DNA of 35,258 nucleotides, taken from Deltaproteobacteria bacterium. GTDB lineage: Bacteria > Myxococcota_A > Polyangia > Polyangiales > Houyiibacteriaceae. The DNA is taken from NCBI GenBank assembly GCA_004283055.1, contig SHLP01000026.1:1-35258 (forward strand), written 5' to 3'. Shown piece by piece: positions 4,627-13,376 of the stretch (positions are counted from its first letter, which is position 1; every line of letters starts with the position of its first letter). The position numbers and the translations under genes are program-made. The notes beneath the pieces were generated by a model that did no database searches, had not been told where the DNA came from, and worked only from the letters and a program-made list of their open reading frames with translations.

Positions 4627-6771
4627 CTATCCGGGATCGAGGCTTGCGTGAATTCCTTTTCGCGGAGGTGAGAGGGTGTAGTGCGGTATGGGTTGCCGAT
4701 CCCGACGGCACCTCGGGTGTTCTTGCTCACACGCTGCGAGCAGCTGCGGCTGCGCATCCGGAGCTCGATGGGCGAGCCATCGTTCCCTTGCGGGCGCCGC
4801 CTCGGACCGGCCCAGGCCTTCGAGGGCCAGTGCGCGGCTACGCAGCAAGCTCTCGTCGCGTGGCGCCAGGCGGAGGCCGGCCTCTGCAGCGGATAGCGCA
4901 TTCTCGTCTTCGGAGAGACTCCCATAGGCCCGTGCCAGGTCCCGCCAGGCACGCGGGTCCAGCGGAGAAGCGTCGGCGACCCGTTGATACGCTTTGGCTG
5001 CCGCCTTCCAGCGCCAGGCTCGGGAATATGCGTCCCCTCGGACGCGATCGAGGACAGGACTTGCTCCGATCAACGCCTCGGCGCGTGCGGCAAAGGACGA
5101 TGCTTCGCCGGGCCGACCCTGGGCCGAGGATAGGCGTGCCCGCAGTACGAGAGCCCGAGCGCTCAGAATCTCGGACTTCAGCTCGCGCGCCAGGCGCAAT
5201 GCGCGCTCGATGCTCGGTTTAGCGAGGTGTGCGTGTTCTTGCTTGGCATGCAGGTGCGCGAGGGCCTGCGTGAGCAGCCGCTCGACCGACGCTCGCCCAG
5301 CCCCGCCCGTCGCCTGATGCTCGCTCGCTCCCGCCCCCATCCAAACCGTTGCGGCGCCCAGCTCGGTGACTGGCTGATCCAGACATGGATCGAGAGCGAC
5401 CTTGCCACGTTGCTCGGCGCCGCGCGCGAACCGGACGCCTCGCTCGCTGCGGCTAGCTTCACACGCCAAGGCCTGAAAGCGAAGGCTGTGCTTACGGTGT
5501 AACAGGCGCACGTCGACCCGCAGCGGAAGCTCGAGCGCACGGGGAAGCGTCATCGAGTAGCGGACGGCCTGCGCATCGTGTGCCGGCAAAGTGCGGTCGA
5601 ACGCCAGAGCGGAAAATCGATGAACTCGATGCAAGATCTCGGGCGCGGACTCCGCATCGAGGAGCGTCGCACGCAGCATGAACACATCGTCCTTGCCGTC
5701 CTCGGTCGGGCGCGAAAGCCCGAGCAGCGTGCCGGAGGCATCACGAACCTCGACCTCGACCCACACGTCCTGCATGTCGCGTGCTCCGCCCGGGAACCGG
5801 TGGCCCGCGCCTCTGTTTTCGAGAAGCACGTCGAAGATGAGCCGCTCCGCGCCGCGGAGCCTCGATTCTTCGGGGAGAAGATAGCGCCGCCGGCCGGCGC
5901 GCACGGCCCCGACGTCTACGATCACCGCACCCTGGAGCTGTTCGATGGCCTGTCTAGCCTGCCTCGGGTCCGGCAACTGGGCGGCCATCGTCGTGTGAGA
6001 TGCGGCCCAGCGATGACTGCGGACCGTTCCGTCGTGGGCGACCGCCATCTCAGTATCGGAGGCCAACTCCGGCGCCATGTGGCAGCCCTGACAGCTATTC
6101 TCCTCGACCTCGACAATCTGGTCCTGCGCCGAGCCCGCGAACGCCGAGGACGCCCAGTCGCCCAAGTCGTCGATTCCGGGGAGATGGTTCTCGTTTCCGA
6201 TTGCGGGGCCTGAAAAGGAGCGGTGACATGAGCCGCAGAGCGCCGCTGTACGGAGCGGCTTCATGGTGAGCCGCGCGCGGTGCGCCTCGATCTCCTCGGG
6301 GTTTGCCGGGTCAGGAAGTACGACGGCCTGGTCGGTCAGTGAGAAGCTCGCGTTGCCGTCGGGCCGCGTAGACTCGACGCTGTGGCAGACCAGGCAGGTG
6401 ATGCCGGCGTACGCGAGGTCGTTGTCCGGCGTGACGCCGTGGTCGATGTCGCCCGAGATCAGGAGGAGCGGGTCGTGGCAGCCGGCGCAGAACCGGCTTT
6501 CGCGCTCGCCCCGCTCCTTGCGGAACTGATCGATGCTCGCACGGTACCAGGGGTTGTCGAACGACGCGTAGGCGTGGGCGCTGTTCGTCCAGTGAGACGC
6601 CACGTCGGAGTGGCAGTCCACACAATCATCGGTCGTAGCGAGCCTCGTGAGATCCAAGGCCGGAGCGCTCAGGAGCGATGGGCTCGCGGCCTGCCCGGTG
6701 GAGCGGAGCGGCTCCGGCGCGCGAGAGCAGCCTCCGATCCATATCAACGCCATGATGAGCCAGCGGGTCAT
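4627..6771 (-). CDS. pentaheme c-type cytochrome lipoprotein with C-terminal TPRs
   Basis: A 714-residue exported protein. The signal peptide ends in a lipobox (WIGGC, Cys15), so it is probably a lipoprotein on the periplasmic face. Five CxxCH heme-binding motifs follow: CVDCH (50-54), CAGCH (95-99), CLVCH (126-130), CGSCH (179-183) and CQGCH (227-231), as in cytochrome c554-like multiheme proteins. Residues ~280-450 form a beta-rich region with GHRFPGGARDMQDVWVEVEV. The last ~220 residues are Ala/Leu-rich helical repeats with TPR character (WRWKAAAKAYQRVADASPLD). It probably passes electrons in the periplasm or scaffolds a redox complex; no substrate is evident. It starts 43 bp after mlaE and is followed 10 bp later by the small tail-anchored gene. 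A related but octaheme protein is encoded at 22959-25241. Confidence 0.88.
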   Translation of the reverse strand: MTRWLIMALIWIGGCSRAPEPLRSTGQAASPSLLSAPALDLTRLATTDDCVDCHSDVASHWTNSAHAYASFDNPWYRASIDQFRKERGERESRFCAGCHDPLLLISGDIDHGVTPDNDLAYAGITCLVCHSVESTRPDGNASFSLTDQAVVLPDPANPEEIEAHRARLTMKPLRTAALCGSCHRSFSGPAIGNENHLPGIDDLGDWASSAFAGSAQDQIVEVEENSCQGCHMAPELASDTEMAVAHDGTVRSHRWAASHTTMAAQLPDPRQARQAIEQLQGAVIVDVGAVRAGRRRYLLPEESRLRGAERLIFDVLLENRGAGHRFPGGARDMQDVWVEVEVRDASGTLLGLSRPTEDGKDDVFMLRATLLDAESAPEILHRVHRFSALAFDRTLPAHDAQAVRYSMTLPRALELPLRVDVRLLHRKHSLRFQALACEASRSERGVRFARGAEQRGKVALDPCLDQPVTELGAATVWMGAGASEHQATGGAGRASVERLLTQALAHLHAKQEHAHLAKPSIERALRLARELKSEILSARALVLRARLSSAQGRPGEASSFAARAEALIGASPVLDRVRGDAYSRAWRWKAAAKAYQRVADASPLDPRAWRDLARAYGSLSEDENALSAAEAGLRLAPRDESLLRSRALALEGLGRSEAAPARERWLAHRAPDAQPQLLAACEQEHPRCRRDRQPIPHYTLSPPRKGIHASLDPG

Positions 6772-6814: not shown

Positions 6815-7636
6815 TCAGAGGGTGCCGAAGCTGACGAAAATCTGCGTGAGGAGAGCGTCCGCCATCAAGATGCTAATCGAGACCACCACGACCGAGCGGG
6901 TCGTCGAGCGGCCGACGCCCTCGGTGCCGCCGCGGGTTTGAAGGCCGAAATGGCAGCCCAGAACCGCGATCAGGAAGCCGAAAAATGGGGTCTTGGAGAC
7001 GCCGCTGATGAAATCGTTGATTCTGAGGGAGTCGAGCGCGGTCGAAAAGAAGAACTCCATCGGAATCCCGTACGACAGCGCCGCGACGAGCATCGAGCTG
7101 AACATCCCGAGAATGAACGCGACGAATGTGATCAACGGCATGATCACGACGCAGGCGACTAGGCGCGGCACGACGAGCTTGCGAATCGGGTCCGCCCCCA
7201 GGGCTCGGATGGCGTCGACTTGCTCGGTCACCGTCATCGAGCCGAGCTCTGCGGCGATTCCGGCTGCGATGCGGCTGCCCACGACGAGCGCCGTCAGCGA
7301 AGGCGCGAGCTCGCGAGCCTCGGAAACCGCGATCACGCGGCCAAGGGTGTCTTTTGCGCCGAAGGCCTCCATCGACACCGCGAATTGAATGGTCATGACG
7401 ATCCCGACGAAGATCGCCGTCGCCGCCGCGATCGCCAGGCTCCGGACGCCGAGCTGCTCGAGCTGGTAGATGAACTCGTTGGTGTCGAAGCGCGTCGTGA
7501 ACATCGCGCGAAGCGTACGCCCGGCGAGAAGGGTCGAGGCGCCCACCTCCTCGACGAATTTTCGAAGACGCCGGATTTGATAGTCGGCCCAGGTGGTGAA
7601 GTTGCGAGGCCTGGTCGACGGTGATGCAGAGGTCAC
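6815..7636 (-). CDS. mlaE: MlaE/YrbE-type ABC transporter permease
   Basis: A 273-residue inner-membrane permease of the MlaE family, the membrane subunit of phospholipid or lipid transport systems (MlaFEDB in E. coli). The core signature is clear: ARELAPSLTALVVGSRIAAG, then AAELGSMTVTEQVDAIRALG, then ADPIRKLVVPRLVA. About five hydrophobic segments follow the usual N-terminal amphipathic region. The GTG start overlaps the stop of the upstream lipoprotein gene (GTGA, 7633-7636), so the two are translationally coupled. Partner genes for the ATPase (mlaF) and MCE substrate-binding protein (mlaD) are absent on both sides; the next gene downstream is a cytochrome. The subunits may be encoded elsewhere. 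The family call is firm, the cargo unknown. Confidence 0.92.
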   Translation of the reverse strand: MTSASPSTRPRNFTTWADYQIRRLRKFVEEVGASTLLAGRTLRAMFTTRFDTNEFIYQLEQLGVRSLAIAAATAIFVGIVMTIQFAVSMEAFGAKDTLGRVIAVSEARELAPSLTALVVGSRIAAGIAAELGSMTVTEQVDAIRALGADPIRKLVVPRLVACVVIMPLITFVAFILGMFSSMLVAALSYGIPMEFFFSTALDSLRINDFISGVSKTPFFGFLIAVLGCHFGLQTRGGTEGVGRSTTRSVVVVSISILMADALLTQIFVSFGTL

Positions 7637-8166
7637 GGCTGATCCGTCGTCGTGGTGAACCCAGCGAGCATCCGGTCGAAATCCGGCAGGGCCTCGTCGA
7701 AGGTCTCGCCCAGCGGCGTAATGAGGCCGAAGTCGTACACGCAGCCGTCCTTTTTGAGGATCTGGAGGAGGATCTGACGCGGGACCCCGTCGAGCTTCGC
7801 GGTGAACGAGGTGCGGAGCGCTTCACGGCCGTCCATCGGAACGAGGAGCTCCTCGACCATCTCTCGCTCCGTGAATCCGATCATGAGGTGGCTTCGAAGC
7901 GCTGTGAGCGGGATGTCTAGGCTGGGGTCACAGTCGGAGTCGACGTGAATGACCGCCCCCTTGGAACCGTTGTGCCAGGCCAGGTCGTTTTGCCGATCGA
8001 CGGAGACGGCCGTCCAGCCCTCGCCGACTGGACCGATCCTGTAGGAGGTCTCCTCACCCTGGTAGCGTCCGTTCTGGAGCGTGCCGGTGGTGGCACAGCC
8101 CACCGCTGCCAGACTCATCAAGAGCCAGATTGCCAGCCGCCGCCTCACTGCGCCGGACTCTAACAC
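7633..8166 (-). CDS. lipoprotein of unknown function coupled to mlaE
   Basis: A 177-residue predicted lipoprotein. A basic start (RRRLAIW), a hydrophobic stretch and the lipobox AAVGC give a lipidated Cys near residue 24. The mature part has two further cysteines (DSDCDPS and KDGCVYD) that could pair in the periplasm. No domain is recognised. It overlaps mlaE by 4 bp, which implies a shared role, perhaps an envelope-lipid accessory; that is inference from position only. The annotated start is GTG 8166; GTG 8148 just before the basic signal-peptide head is an equally plausible start and would shorten it by six residues. Confidence 0.82.
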   Translation of the reverse strand: MLESGAVRRRLAIWLLMSLAAVGCATTGTLQNGRYQGEETSYRIGPVGEGWTAVSVDRQNDLAWHNGSKGAVIHVDSDCDPSLDIPLTALRSHLMIGFTEREMVEELLVPMDGREALRTSFTAKLDGVPRQILLQILKKDGCVYDFGLITPLGETFDEALPDFDRMLAGFTTTTDQP

Positions 8167-8290
8167 GCCGGGCTTTGTTGTCGATTTCGACTTTTCAGCG
8201 TGAGGGCGAGCCGGGCTCGATTTGGTTCGCTACACTGTAGGGACCGTGGGTTGGGGGGCTCAACCAGAACAGACGACGCAGATTCGCGGC

Positions 8291-10303
8291 ATGGCGACGC
8301 TGGATCGGCTCGTCGTCGAAGGGAAGCTGCCGCCCGACCGCTACGACGAGGTCGTCATCCACGCCCAGCGGACCCAGTCGACCGCGGAGGAAGCGATCCT
8401 CCAGCTCGGCCTGATGAGCGAAGCGGCGCTCCTCAAGTACCTCGCCGGCTTCTACAAGACCCGATTCGTGAGCTCCGAGCGGCTTGCCAAGGCGGCCATT
8501 GACCGCGGACTCCTTCAGAAAGTACCCCGGAAGCTCGCCAAGCGGTTGACCGCCTTCCCCATCATGTACGACGCGAAGAGCCGAATGGTTTCGGTCGTTG
8601 CGGCGGACATGACCGATGAGGACGTGCGACAGCAGATGACCTTTGCAACGGGCGCACGAGGTGTACACGTCTACGTGGCACGCGAGGGCGCCATCCGCGC
8701 AGCTATCGCCAAGCACTACGATCAGGACAACCGACCATTCGACATGCTGCTGAGCGGCGCTTCGTCGCGCGAAGTTCGCTCGTCGCGAGAGTCCGACCCC
8801 GTACCCGGCTGGGGTCAGGTTTTCGAAGACAAAGACGGGCTGCTTGTCCGCCGTCGTAGGAAGCAGTCACTCGAGGCAGAGCAGCCTGCGAACGATCAGG
8901 CCATCGAGTATGAAGTCGACGAGCCGCCCCCGGAGACTGAATCGGGCATTTCTGCCGGGGAAACCCTGATCGAGCAACTCTCCGCTCCTGAGGAGGGGGG
9001 CGATCTTGCCGTCGACCCGGAGGTCTACCTAGAAACGCTCAGCGTGCTCGTGACGCTCATGGAGCAGCTCAATCCGCATCGAGGTGCCCATTCGATGCGC
9101 GTGGCGCGGGTGTGCAAGCAAGTCTGCGAGCGGATTCGACTCAGCAAGGCGCAGGTTCAAGGCATCTTGGTCGCCGCATACCTGCACGACCTTGGAGTTT
9201 CGACCGACTCGCATTCGACGCCGTTCGATGTAGCGCACGACGAGGCCAAGCAAGAGAACGCCCGCCGATTCTACAGCGCCCCGATTCGAATTCTCGAGAC
9301 CGTCGAACTTCCCAAGACGGCGGTCGACGCGCTTCGGCACCGCTTCGAGCGTTTCGACGGCAAGGGTTTCCCGGAACGATTGACGGGGAAAGACATCCCC
9401 CTCGGCGCTCGAATTCTTGCCATTGCCGAGAGCTATGTCGATTTGACCCAGAGTAAGAACAACGCGCTCGGGCAGCGCGTCTCTGCGGAGCAGGCGTGCG
9501 ATGCGTTGGAGCCCCACAAGGGAACGAGCTTCGATCCTGCGGTCGTCGATTGGTTGCGCCATATCGTCCTGGACGACGGGCTCAACGCGCAGATCATGTC
9601 CGAGCGCCATCGTGTGCTGATTGTCGATCCGGAACCGGAAGAGACTGCTGTGCTCGAGGTGCAGCTTGCCGGTCAGGGCTACGACGTCATCATCGAGCGA
9701 TCCATTAAAGGCGCGCTCCGGAGCCTGGAGGCCGATGCCTTCGACCTCGTGGTGAGCGAGGTCAACCTAGCGGATGGTCAAGGCTTCGAGCTTCTCGAGC
9801 TCATGCGCAAGAACGCACATGCCAAGACACCTTTGATGTTCGTGACCTCCGACCGCGCTCAGTCGTCGATCAATTTTGGGCTCGAGCTCGGAGCAGCAGA
9901 CTACGTCGTCAAACCCACGTCGGCCGCGGTCGTCGCGGCCAAGGTGGGGCGGATCATCGCGAACAGTCGCGCTCAAAGTGCTGGCGGCCGCGGCATCTCC
10001 GGATCGCTTCAAGAAATGGCGCTTCCCGATTTGATTCAGATGATCGCGAATGGCCGCAAGAACGGGATCCTGAGAGTTCGAAACGGCGCGTCGGAGGGCG
10101 AGCTGATGTTTCAGGATGGCGCGATTCATGACGCGCGCTTCGGTCAGCTTTGCGGCGCTGAAGCCGTTTACGGAGTGCTTCGACTCACGGACGGAGATTT
10201 TGCCCTCGAGCCCCAAACCGAGCCTGTGGCGGACTCCATCGGGATACCGACGCACCACCTCTTGCTAGAAGCGATGCGTAGGCTCGACGAAGAACAGCGC
10301 TAG
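8291..10303 (+). CDS. GspE-N / HD-GYP-like / receiver / DUF4388 signalling protein
   Basis: A 670-residue cytoplasmic multidomain protein. Residues ~1-145 resemble the type II secretion/MshEN N-terminal domain, which in some proteins binds cyclic di-GMP. An acidic linker follows (~160-240). Residues ~245-425 are HD-GYP-like: H267 in AHSMRV, H299-D300 in YLHDLGV, RFERFDGKGFP at 351-361 and the closing HKGTSFDP. Residues 441-555 are a receiver-like fold with K541. Residues ~569-660 are DUF4388, common in myxobacterial gliding and regulatory proteins. Key residues differ: the HHE of the GYP motif reads RFE, the Lys of HDxGK is Val, and the phosphoacceptor Asp is Glu490. Catalysis and phosphotransfer are therefore doubtful and it may be a binding or scaffold protein. 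ATG 8291 is chosen; TTG 8222 would add 23 residues. Confidence 0.85.
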   Translation: MATLDRLVVEGKLPPDRYDEVVIHAQRTQSTAEEAILQLGLMSEAALLKYLAGFYKTRFVSSERLAKAAIDRGLLQKVPRKLAKRLTAFPIMYDAKSRMVSVVAADMTDEDVRQQMTFATGARGVHVYVAREGAIRAAIAKHYDQDNRPFDMLLSGASSREVRSSRESDPVPGWGQVFEDKDGLLVRRRRKQSLEAEQPANDQAIEYEVDEPPPETESGISAGETLIEQLSAPEEGGDLAVDPEVYLETLSVLVTLMEQLNPHRGAHSMRVARVCKQVCERIRLSKAQVQGILVAAYLHDLGVSTDSHSTPFDVAHDEAKQENARRFYSAPIRILETVELPKTAVDALRHRFERFDGKGFPERLTGKDIPLGARILAIAESYVDLTQSKNNALGQRVSAEQACDALEPHKGTSFDPAVVDWLRHIVLDDGLNAQIMSERHRVLIVDPEPEETAVLEVQLAGQGYDVIIERSIKGALRSLEADAFDLVVSEVNLADGQGFELLELMRKNAHAKTPLMFVTSDRAQSSINFGLELGAADYVVKPTSAAVVAAKVGRIIANSRAQSAGGRGISGSLQEMALPDLIQMIANGRKNGILRVRNGASEGELMFQDGAIHDARFGQLCGAEAVYGVLRLTDGDFALEPQTEPVADSIGIPTHHLLLEAMRRLDEEQR

Positions 10304-10349: not shown

Positions 10350-13300
10350 GTGGGATATGCTGTGAACGTGCGTCTGTGCCATCAGTGCGGCGCGTCGGTA
10401 GAAGATGCCGCGCGCTTTTGTTCTGCCTGCGGTGCGCCCTCTGACGAGCACGAGGGTGGCGGTGAAGCAGACCCGCTCGTCGGACGTATCGTCGGCGGTT
10501 CCTATCTCCTGCAAGATGTCGTCGGCGTTGGGGGTATGGGGCGCGTCTACAAGGCCGAGCAGTCCACCCTTGGGCGGACCGTAGCGGTCAAGGTGATCCA
10601 CCCGCATCTCCTCGGCGACGAGCAAACCGTCGCGAGGTTCTACCAGGAGGCCCGTGCTTCGAGCCGCCTAAATCATCCCAACAGCGTTAGCATCATCGAC
10701 TTCGGTCGAACCGACGACGGGATTCTCTACCTCGCGATGGAGTTCCTCAGCGGCAAGGACTTGGCGTTGGTGATGCATGAAGAGGGGCCGCTCGAGGTAG
10801 ATCGAATCTGCAAGATCCTGATCAACACGCTCGATGCGCTCGGCGAAGCGCACGAGCTCGGCATCGTGCACCGTGATCTGAAGCCTGAGAACATCATCTT
10901 GCGCCCGCTTCGTTCGGGAGACGACCTGGTCAAGGTCGTCGACTTCGGCCTTGCGACGATCGTCGGCAAAGAGAGCTCGATCACGAAACCCGGCCTGGTC
11001 TGCGGAACGCCTGACTACATGTCTCCAGAGCAGGGCCGGGGCGATGGCGTCGATGGGCGCGGTGACCTCTATGCACTCGGTGTCGTGCTCTTCGAGCTTC
11101 TGGCCGGGCACCTCCCGTACATCGACGACACGCCCACGAGGGTCGTTCTGAGGCACATCAACGATCCGATTCCCGACCCGCGCACAGCGAACCCACCGCG
11201 AGAGGTTCCGGATCGCTTGGCGGAAGTGACGATGAAGGCGCTGGCCAAGGATCCCAATGAGCGCTTCCAGGTCGCTCGCGACATGCAGCAGGCGCTTCGC
11301 AGCGCCCTCGAGCAGACGCTGGTCCTCCGCGCCTCGGTCATCCCCTGCCCAAGCTGTGGTGCTCCGACGTCTCATGCCCAGAATTTCTGCGGTGAGTGTG
11401 GCGCACGGCTCGCCGGCCCCGAGCCCGCCCTGGGCAGCAATCGCTCGCTGCGGCCGTCGTTCTACCCGCCCTTGGGCTCGCAGCGTCTTTTCGTAGGGCG
11501 CGAAAACGAGCTTCGCCTGATCCGTGAACATCGTCATGCAGCCACACAAGGGGCGCACTGGGTGCACTTGTTTGGTGAACCCGGTGTGGGCAAGACTCGG
11601 TTCCTCACCGAGATCGCGGAGGTTGCCGCTGCAGAAGGCGATCTCGTCGTCGGTGCCGGCGCCCATCCGACCGGCTCGCCCGTGCCCTACGCGGCGATTC
11701 GCACCCTCCTGGCCGAGCTCCTGGAAGTCGACGATTCGGAGCTGGCGAGGATGGCGCTCAGGGGAGACGACCTCGGCTCCCAGCTCGCCTGCGCCGGGGT
11801 CAGTGAGGTGATGAATCCTTCTGGTCTGCTCGGCGGCGACGGCCGTTCGAGGACAGGCGCGGTGGCCGAGGCACTGGCCTCGGCGGTGCGGAGCGCGCGC
11901 GGGCGGGCATCGAGTGGGCGAGTCATGTTGATCCTCGATGACCTTTCTTACTGCGATGGGCTGACCCAGCGAACCATCGTAGAGCTCTCGCGCGCGCTCG
12001 GAACAGAGCCCGTGCTTTTGGTGACCGCCAGCGATCACGATCGAGGCATCCTCGCCGATGAAGTGATTCAGCTCGAAGGTCTCGACTCGGGGCAGGCCGA
12101 GGAGTTCTTGGCTGGCTCGTTCCATCTTCGTCTGGTGTCCGGGCTCGACAAGGTCACCGAGTCGGTCGGCGGTCAGGTCCTGCCGCTCCATCTGGAGCAG
12201 CTCGAGGCGCTTGGTGTGACCCCTGACGACGGGCCGGCTCCGCGCTTGGCGGACGCCATCGCGCGCCGCATCGAACGGCTCGAAGTCGACGCCCAGCGCC
12301 TCCTTCAAGCTGCTGCCGTTCTCGGCCGGACGTGCGACCTAGACGCCCTGCGCCGCGTCTCGGAGAACGATGAGCTGCACGGCCTCGACGAGCTTGCCGG
12401 GAACTCCCTCGTGCAGCTCGACGGCGGCAGGGTGAGTATCGTTCATCCGTTCATCGCGGACCTCGTCGCAGCGTCGATTCCCGCCGAGGCGCGCCGCGAG
12501 CTTCACCGCCGCGCCTTCGAGGTCCTGAGCGAGCTTCGAGCGCCTGAAGAGGTGCGTGCCGTCCACGCGTACAGTGGCGTCGATGCCGTGACCAGCCTCG
12601 TGGTTCTCGAGAAAGCCGGCGACGCCTCGATGGGTCGTGGCGATCACCTCGGTGCAGTTTTGCAGTACCGGCGCGCACTCGAGCTTGCTCGCCGGCAGAC
12701 CTTGGAAAGCGGCGATACCGTGTATGACCGAGCCATTGCCACGTTCAGCAGAAAGCTCGGAGAAGCGCTGGCAAGATCGGGCGATGCATCCGGTGCGGAC
12801 GGTGTGCTGCGTGAGGCGCTCGACCTCACAGCGCCGAACAGCGCGGATCGCGCGAGGATGCTCATGTCTCTCGGACGCATTGCGGCGCGTCGCGACCGGC
12901 CTCGCGACGCCATGCGGCAATACGGCCAAGCGCTCGAGCAGGTCGCCGGCGTCGAGCCCTCGATCGAGTCTCATCTTCAGGTGGCCATCGGGCGCATCCG
13001 TCGTATCGAGGGCGACCCACAGCACGCAGCGAACGCTTATCGACGCGCACTCGAGCTCTTCGGCGAAATCGGCGCGCCGGCGGATACTATCGCCCGTGCC
13101 CGGCTAGAGCTCGCCGACGCGCTTACGGCTGCGGGTGACCACGACGGCGCCGCTCACGAGCTCGCCAGCGTCGAGCGGGACGGGAGGGCGAGCGCCGGCT
13201 CGAGTCTCGTCGCTCGCGCCGTTGGCATGCTCGGCTCGATCGACGAGCTAGCCGGCCGGGCGCGTGACGCCCAGGCTCGATACGAAGAGGCCGCTTCCCT

Positions 13301-13376
13301 CGCTGCCGAAGCGGGCGATGCGCCCGGATATCGGCGCTGGCTTTCGGCCAGTAAAACGCTCCGAGCCAGCATCTAG
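10350..13376 (+). CDS. Ser/Thr protein kinase with zinc ribbons, AAA ATPase and TPR region
   Basis: A 1008-residue signalling protein. Residues 10-27 are a zinc ribbon (CHQC and CSAC). A Hanks-type kinase follows (~52-320) with GVGGMGRVYKAE as Gly loop, AVKV with Lys81, HRDLKPEN at 174-181 and DFG at 198-200; all catalytic residues look intact. A second zinc ribbon lies at 333-350 (CPSC and CGEC). An AAA/STAND-type ATPase follows, with FVGRENEL, Walker A GEPGVGKT (409-416) and Walker B VMLILDD (525-531). The C-terminal ~400 residues are helical TPR-like repeats. This is the layout of large myxobacterial PknB-type kinases that act as signal scaffolds. No transmembrane segment is seen. The start is ambiguous between GTG 10350, 10362 and 10368. 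It follows the HD-GYP-like gene by 46 bp. Confidence 0.92.
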   Translation: MGYAVNVRLCHQCGASVEDAARFCSACGAPSDEHEGGGEADPLVGRIVGGSYLLQDVVGVGGMGRVYKAEQSTLGRTVAVKVIHPHLLGDEQTVARFYQEARASSRLNHPNSVSIIDFGRTDDGILYLAMEFLSGKDLALVMHEEGPLEVDRICKILINTLDALGEAHELGIVHRDLKPENIILRPLRSGDDLVKVVDFGLATIVGKESSITKPGLVCGTPDYMSPEQGRGDGVDGRGDLYALGVVLFELLAGHLPYIDDTPTRVVLRHINDPIPDPRTANPPREVPDRLAEVTMKALAKDPNERFQVARDMQQALRSALEQTLVLRASVIPCPSCGAPTSHAQNFCGECGARLAGPEPALGSNRSLRPSFYPPLGSQRLFVGRENELRLIREHRHAATQGAHWVHLFGEPGVGKTRFLTEIAEVAAAEGDLVVGAGAHPTGSPVPYAAIRTLLAELLEVDDSELARMALRGDDLGSQLACAGVSEVMNPSGLLGGDGRSRTGAVAEALASAVRSARGRASSGRVMLILDDLSYCDGLTQRTIVELSRALGTEPVLLVTASDHDRGILADEVIQLEGLDSGQAEEFLAGSFHLRLVSGLDKVTESVGGQVLPLHLEQLEALGVTPDDGPAPRLADAIARRIERLEVDAQRLLQAAAVLGRTCDLDALRRVSENDELHGLDELAGNSLVQLDGGRVSIVHPFIADLVAASIPAEARRELHRRAFEVLSELRAPEEVRAVHAYSGVDAVTSLVVLEKAGDASMGRGDHLGAVLQYRRALELARRQTLESGDTVYDRAIATFSRKLGEALARSGDASGADGVLREALDLTAPNSADRARMLMSLGRIAARRDRPRDAMRQYGQALEQVAGVEPSIESHLQVAIGRIRRIEGDPQHAANAYRRALELFGEIGAPADTIARARLELADALTAAGDHDGAAHELASVERDGRASAGSSLVARAVGMLGSIDELAGRARDAQARYEEAASLAAEAGDAPGYRRWLSASKTLRASI

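Follow-up and report, generated by a model that had tools for sequence, protein, structure and literature searches.

In the HD-GYP protein PmGH, replacement by Ala of H189, H221, D222, H250, H276, H277 or K225 essentially abolishes hydrolysis, Ala at E185 or D305 lowers it, and Ala in the GYP motif, at R314 or at K317 leaves it not much lower (PMC4159591, in part). Degenerate HD-GYP domains have been described in HdgB of Streptomyces (PMC6205966) and in VC1087 and VCA0895 of Vibrio cholerae (PMC4212101). The domain of Desulfovibrio vulgaris DvhD, whose HD pair reads SQ and whose HH pair reads MN, is metal-free, shows no turnover and binds c-di-GMP with a Kd of ~99 nM; its R650A and Y652A/R653A mutants weaken stabilisation by c-di-GMP (PMC13090378, excerpt). 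Among receiver domains, a 2015 survey found 4% to be without the phosphoacceptor Asp, Glu accounting for 26% of the substitutions (PMC12548384, excerpt). Glu at this position can mimic the phosphate and is not always activating, and the switching of such pseudo-receivers is called a mystery in a review (PMC12632262). The MshEN receptor module carries two 24-residue copies of the motif RLGxx(L/V/I)2xxG(L/V/I)2xxxxLxxxLxxQ, with contacts made via Arg, Gly and Gln and by Leu packing (PMC5013675, excerpt). The PATAN response regulator PixE of Synechocystis binds PilB1 (PMC7690835).

The gene studied here lies in a window of 35,258 nucleotides, the whole stretch of DNA that was analysed, and codes for a protein of 670 aa that joins GspE-N/MshEN, HD-GYP, receiver and DUF4388 domains in this order (Table 1). 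DUF4388 is presumably the PatA-like N-terminal domain. The open reading frame extends from a TTG at 8222 to 10303. The ATG used in Table 1 fits as start codon because the orthologues start at the same residue and most of those in the genus have a stop ~20 codons upstream. The initial annotation had set the feature at 8978-10000, which falls inside the gene and covers only its middle. Counting from the ATG, the residues that it named (RFERFDGKGFP at 351-361, Val303, Glu490, the HD pair, HKGTSFDP and Lys541) all read correctly in the translation, and the four-domain fusion that it proposed is borne out by Pfam matches above their cut-offs: MshEN at 66-146 only (47.3 bits, cut-off 23.1), HD_5 at 252-418, receiver at 442-548 and DUF4388 at 570-668. 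The Pfam scan gave no family for residues 147-239. An AlphaFold2 model of the whole protein has a mean pLDDT of 80.2 and a pTM of 0.49, with low confidence in the linker; the domains can therefore be trusted and their relative arrangement cannot.

Table 1. Coordinates of the gene, its domains and key residues, and its neighbours in the window
Feature	Coordinates	Strand	Basis
Divergent neighbour, MlaE permease	6815..7636	-	PF02405 229.8 bits
Divergent neighbour, 177-aa lipoprotein-like protein, no Pfam match	7633..8166	-	
Whole gene: GspE-N/MshEN, HD-GYP-like, pseudo-receiver and DUF4388	8291..10303	+	ORF, Pfam, orthologue starts
GspE-N/MshEN-like domain, residues 1-146, lacking the motif residues that contact c-di-GMP	8291..8728	+	PF05157 at 66-146; motif count; Foldseek match to PilF GSPIIA 9g1w
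Low-confidence linker, residues 147-239	8729..9007	+	pLDDT <50 at 157-239; dN/dS 0.185, highest of the parts
Degenerate HD-GYP domain, residues 240-430	9008..9580	+	PF13487 80.5 bits; fold match to HD-GYP structures, Z 15.4-19.4
HDLGV, residues 299-303, with Val where HDxGK has Lys	9185..9199	+	Translation and family alignment
RFERFDGKGFP, residues 351-361, with other residues at the HH and Tyr of HHExxDGxGYP	9341..9373	+	Translation and family alignment
Glu380, replacing the metal-ligand Asp (PmGH D305)	9428..9430	+	Profile alignment and family alignment
NNALG, residues 390-394, nucleotide-contact loop lost in the window's genus (R/K-N-P-Y/F-R in most relatives)	9458..9472	+	Family alignment; mapped onto DvhD and PmGH
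Pseudo-receiver domain, residues 438-562	9602..9976	+	PF00072 57.8 bits; Z up to 22.6 to receiver domains
Glu490 (GAG), replacing the phosphoacceptor Asp	9758..9760	+	Glu in 126/127 rows
Receiver Lys541, retained	9911..9913	+	Translation and family alignment
DUF4388 (PatA-like/PATAN) domain, residues 566-670, likely output	9986..10300	+	PF14332 81.1 bits, cut-off 25
Downstream neighbour, coding for a Ser/Thr kinase that has a zinc ribbon at its N-terminus, AAA_16 and TPR	10350..13376	+	

This predicted signalling protein is common to many myxobacteria and their relatives. All 183 searched genomes of the order have some match at E <=1e-10, and 160 of them reach E 1e-50 while 23 do not. Of 235 genomes drawn from the phylum, 34 reach 1e-40; 30 of these belong to the order, two to other parts of the class and two to a different family of the phylum. 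Of 326 confirmed relatives 80 were kept, and among these listed matches the named ones are MAGs titled Polyangiaceae, Sandaracinaceae, Myxococcales, Myxococcota or Deltaproteobacteria. The window's genus has an orthologue in 16 of its 18 other genomes, with 69-88% identity, and only weak matches in the other two (G027 and G030). Six genomes (G076, G077, G083, G084, G085 and G101) each contain two loci that match the HD-GYP/receiver/DUF4388 part, with ~40% identity to the query at either locus. Pfam finds the four domains in 46/46 members scanned, the window protein included.

Residues were compared in an alignment of 127 distinct rows, 17 from the window's genus and 110 others, that samples about one place per genus of the order; 60 regions were included besides the loci of the order-wide search, and 45 of the 79 loci of the relatives kept were put into it. 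Rows identical over the last 400 residues were dropped, as were the row identical to the window (L003), a control protein outside the family (L001) and a same-genus fragment without residues before 385 (L108), which was excluded from the residue counts. A tree built from the receiver and DUF4388 domains joins this fragment and the genus rows in one set (SH-aLRT 100), and Lys303 needs two changes overall. As aligned, the losses described below fall in two tiers, one that is family-wide and one confined to the window's genus, and most of them are traits of the family and not quirks of the window protein.

The HD-GYP fold is evident from a match to PF13487 (cut-off 27.2 bits) and from structural similarity to nine HD-GYP entries. 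The domain was folded alone because the structure matches of the whole model were filled by receiver domains; this model (pLDDT 92.5, pTM 0.91) is closest to c-di-GMP-bound DvhD (Z 19.4, rmsd 3.4, 180 residues aligned), with other HD-GYP entries within 2 Z units and the next-best HD structures at Z 10.8 and below. The window protein reads LHDLGV at 298-303, RFERFDGKGFP in place of the GYP motif and HKGTSFDP at 409-416. Throughout the family the HH pair is missing at 351-352 (0/127 rows), position 351 being Met in 86 rows, Leu in 22, Arg in 18 and Val in one, and position 352 mostly Tyr; the Tyr of the GYP motif (position 360) is likewise found in none of the 127 rows. Other positions hardly vary: Glu353, His267 and His299 are present in all 127 rows, Asp300 in 125 and an Asp or Glu at 380 in 126. 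Another HD-GYP protein of the same genome, the control mentioned above, is intact, with HDIGK and HHERWDGLGYP.

Two residues were considered as shifted substitutes for the lost His and both were rejected. H350, just ahead of the HH pair, does not replace it: the register E353-x-x-D356-G-x-G-x-P is fixed, and position 350 is His in 16 of the 17 genus rows but in only ~6/10 of the others. H320 was tried as a shifted mid-domain metal His; this position is His in 105/110 non-genus rows, whereas most genus rows have Lys. A separate position, His308 (9212-9214), is kept in 126/127 rows, where it sits in the Y-H-L-T stretch of relatives just after HDxGK; it is absent from the canonical HD-GYP paralogue, and its counterpart in the alignment with DvhD is R569 of the bridging site.

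With R351, F352, V303, F360 and E380, and no counterpart of the mid-domain metal His, the window protein is without three of the eight metal ligands (the HH pair and the mid His), carries Glu at the place of PmGH D305 and His at that of E185, and has lost the equivalent of K225. Since metal ligands and the K225 equivalent are missing, c-di-GMP hydrolysis by this domain is predicted to be very unlikely. The proposal of the initial annotation that the domain is non-catalytic is supported by the loss of HH, Lys and Tyr and by PmGH, in which an Ala substitution of one His of the pair, or of the Lys, abolishes activity (PMC4159591); Glu380, the missing mid His and the loop NNALGQ at 390-395 are further changes that it had not listed.

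Several of these changes belong to the window's genus. Position 303 is Val or Ile in 17/17 genus rows whereas it is Lys in 109/110 others; 394 is Gly in all 17 and Arg in 105/110 others; 393 is Leu or Ala in 16/17 against Tyr or Phe in 103/110; 320 is never His in the 17 rows, and position 380 is Glu in all of them. Residues 390-395 of the window protein stand against RNPYRK in relatives. The domain was not let go by the genus, as its within-genus median dN/dS of 0.088 indicates (GspE-N 0.097, linker 0.185, receiver 0.135, DUF4388 0.111); these values, from pairs with dS of 0.05-2.5 only, are rough because the median dS exceeds 1. Positions conserved in the others and changed in the genus are more frequent in HD-GYP (18/96) than in GspE-N (2/46) and DUF4388 (2/56) taken together (4/102; Fisher p 0.001), and than in all three other domains, the receiver (6/46) included (p 0.007).

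Some of the positions concerned map onto the nucleotide pocket of DvhD, according to a profile alignment that has an insertion of two residues next to R650. Non-genus rows are basic at the places of K582 (321, 101/110), R650 (390, 96/110) and R653 (394, 106/110), aromatic at that of Y652 (393, 103/110) and hydrophobic at that of M646 (385, 110/110). The equivalent of Tyr621 is never Tyr in the family, the other contacts being kept by most non-genus rows. The window protein has Q321, N390/N391, L393, G394 and F360 in place of K582, R650, Y652, R653 and Y621. Since non-genus rows keep pocket residues and the window protein does not, a receptor function may apply in the order but fits this protein poorly. 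Genus changes affect 5/13 mapped pocket positions against 13/83 other conserved HD-GYP positions (p 0.064, not significant), so that an enrichment of losses at the putative pocket is suggestive only.

The receiver reads VVSEVNL at 487-493 and VVKP at 539-542, and its combination of a clear PF00072 match with E490 assigns it to the Asp-less pseudo-receivers; E490 and D446-P447 do not fit a canonical receiver. The only row with Asp at position 490 (L196) is from outside the genus. Lys541 is found in 124/127 rows, one having a gap, and Thr or Ser at 519 in 118/127. The second acidic residue is Pro in 90/127 rows, with an acid one place later in 45/46 members. The Asp is retained by a receiver-DUF4388 paralogue of the same genome (L207, contig 21), which shows 38% identity in 246 aligned columns and also carries a long low-complexity tail. 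The initial annotation was right to read Glu490 as the end of phosphorylation on Asp, to which the window receiver is predicted to be refractory, and Glu often mimics phosphorylation (PMC12632262, PMC12548384, both in part). The near-unbroken Glu with Thr/Ser519 and Lys541 would fit a built-in active-like state, and the constitutively on state suggested by the initial annotation would fit too; comparison of the receiver structure matches with activated structures gave no diagnostic lean.

A different outcome was obtained for the suggestion that the GspE-N domain could read c-di-GMP. The two motif copies of the window protein match 4/11 and 6/11 key positions and 0/6 of the Arg/Gly/Gln contacts, which gives this reading no support. 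The register of the motifs is sound because the turn glycines 11 and 40 are spaced as in MshE (18 and 47). Across 46 members, 21 have none of these contacts, 18 have one and seven have two. The GspE-N-type structure listed by Foldseek is GSPII-A of Thermus PilF, which has a better motif and does not bind c-di-GMP (PMC11731258). Should a dinucleotide be read anywhere in the family, the HD-GYP pocket of non-genus members would be the more likely reader.

We privilege the view that the protein is a conserved non-enzymatic signalling adaptor, in which a dead HD-GYP domain accompanies a phosphomimetic pseudo-receiver driving the DUF4388 output, and we give this prediction about an even chance. Three modules are without working parts and yet carefully kept by evolution; the protein would therefore probably be neither an enzyme nor an ordinary sensor but an adaptor that is always on. 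Glu490 could mimic a permanent phosphate and lock the receiver, together with the C-terminal output, in an active-like state, and the HD-GYP and GspE-N folds could serve as dimerisation or docking modules. On this view, the HD-GYP domain in most of the order keeps a nucleotide pocket and may be a metal-free cyclic-dinucleotide receptor like DvhD; in the window's genus the pocket is gone too, so this protein would probably have no ligand, its control lying with partners or expression. The pseudo-receiver might instead be regulated by a small molecule or a partner, Glu490 being structural, a possible but doubtful alternative: direct or indirect control of such domains is known and replacement of the D site has no effect in some (PMC12632262, excerpt), yet the family-wide Glu, next to a Thr/Ser and a Lys that most rows retain, is at least equally compatible with a phosphomimetic. 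That the gene is a decaying relic without function is highly improbable. The three degenerate modules could suggest it, and so could the deletion of MXAN_2807 of Myxococcus xanthus, which does not figure among the mutants reported with growth, motility or development defects (PMC4877007, PMC8844925). However, MXAN_2807 is compared by description only, every domain is under purifying selection (within-genus dN/dS 0.09-0.14 per domain) and present in all members scanned, and the frames are open, free of stops, in the listed genus orthologues. A decayed copy, a pseudogene and a sequencing error are rejected on these data and on conservation in 17 genus rows; chance or assembly error is excluded because Glu490 is so widely shared and the HH pair is missing in every row.

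The remaining alternatives concern what the HD-GYP domain could still do. The hypothesis that the domain of the whole family, window protein included, binds c-di-GMP or cGAMP without metal in the manner of DvhD and signals to the receiver-DUF4388 half is unlikely in our view. It draws on the structural match to ligand-bound DvhD, on pocket-aligned positions 321, 390, 393, 394 and 385 being conserved in type in 96-110 of 110 non-genus rows, and on the 14 GGDEF, 10 PilZ and two HD_5 places from which c-di-GMP signalling can be deduced in the genome. It is opposed by the invariable lack of the Tyr621 equivalent, by a mapping that depends on a profile alignment with an insertion beside R650, and by V303 and the pocket substitutions of the window protein, where mutants of DvhD weaken stabilisation (PMC13090378, excerpt). 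We hold it possible, with a rather low probability, that the family at large is an undescribed class of metal-free cyclic-dinucleotide receptors in which a dead HD-GYP pocket is coupled to a permanently phosphomimetic pseudo-receiver and a DUF4388 output, and in which ligand binding has taken over the switching role of phosphorylation; the window's genus would then have become constitutive upon loss of the ligand. Distinctly less probable is that the domain retains another, single-metal phosphohydrolase activity on a different substrate through a classical H...HD...D site. The near-invariance of the HD motif, Glu353, Asp384 and the set H267, H299, D300 and D/E380, together with that of His308, makes a single metal and some such activity conceivable; the genus has nevertheless lost Lys303 and has Glu at 380 in all its rows, the invariant residues may merely hold the fold, and the neighbours suggest no substrate.

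Which partner the favoured adaptor would act on is a guess. An ATPase like PilB or GspE, from a type IV pilus or a type II secretion system, is proposed because a cyanobacterial PATAN response regulator binds PilB1, and the genome has eight PF00437 places; the recurring neighbours (MlaE permease, lipoprotein and kinase) count against PilB. The divergent lipoprotein-like and MlaE permease genes, which overlap each other, are found upstream in 11/11 genus loci with at least 2 kb of flank, and one or both lie near the target in 18/56 non-genus loci with enough flank. The kinase gene begins 46 bases downstream and follows the target in 14/14 genus loci and 6/52 others with enough flank. This neighbourhood hints at an envelope-related role, although not one that holds across the order. 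Positions 4627-6771 of the reverse strand code for a protein of 714 aa in which a cytochrome c554 domain is combined with TPR-like repeats.

A literature search over listings and passages returned no description of the four-domain family, which is no proof of its absence; the search on DUF4388 led to a single paper, on a nitrite reductase. Degenerate HD-GYP domains and pseudo-receivers are each already known, and what makes this family interesting is that all three losses are conserved and that one genus has taken a second step. A Glu-fixed receiver beside a dead HD-GYP domain, whose pocket is kept in most members and lost in one genus, offers a clean comparison of control by ligand and by phosphate, and if the receptor reading of the family is true, the two versions amount to a natural experiment on pseudo-receiver control. 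Annotation of such proteins as c-di-GMP phosphodiesterases, phosphorylated response regulators or c-di-GMP-binding MshEN proteins is probably wrong on all three counts.

Among the known systems, the window protein shares with DvhD (PMC13090378) the HD-GYP fold, the loss of HH and a non-catalytic state, here predicted. DvhD has kept the GYP Tyr and the c-di-GMP site and lost HD, whereas the window protein has kept HD and lost most of the site; DvhD resides in the membrane and combines HD-GYP with Cache and PAS domains, and the window protein adds GspE-N, receiver and DUF4388. PmGH (PMC4159591) is similar in fold (Z 18.2), in the equivalents of H189, H221 and D222 and in the GxP and FDP motifs, but its H250, H276, H277, K225, Y285, R314 and K317 have no equivalents in the window protein. 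The NosR-type REC-HD-GYP phosphodiesterase model NF053512 gives the best NCBIfam score, 142.7 bits, far under its cut-off of 400. MXAN_2807, a 661-aa protein with HD-GYP and MshEN, resembles the window protein by description (PMC8844925, PMC4877007, both in part). For the GspE-N part, the MshEN receptor (PMC5013675) and Thermus PilF GSPII-A (PMC11731258) share the fold and the second subdomain, and the Arg/Gly/Gln contacts set the MshEN receptor apart.

CmrT of C. difficile and other Asp-less receivers (PMC12548384, PMC12632262) resemble the receiver of the window in the Glu at the phosphoacceptor position, in the Thr and Lys kept, and in the Asp-x-Asp/Glu (446-448) found instead of the acidic pair. 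They differ in output, which is an OmpR-type DNA-binding domain in the CmrT type and DUF4388 in the window protein, whose receiver follows a degenerate HD-GYP domain. The combination of a receiver with a PATAN-type domain is shared with PixE and PixG of Synechocystis (PMC7690835, excerpt); these are CheY-like response regulators, whereas the receiver of the window protein is Asp-less and is joined to GspE-N and HD-GYP domains.
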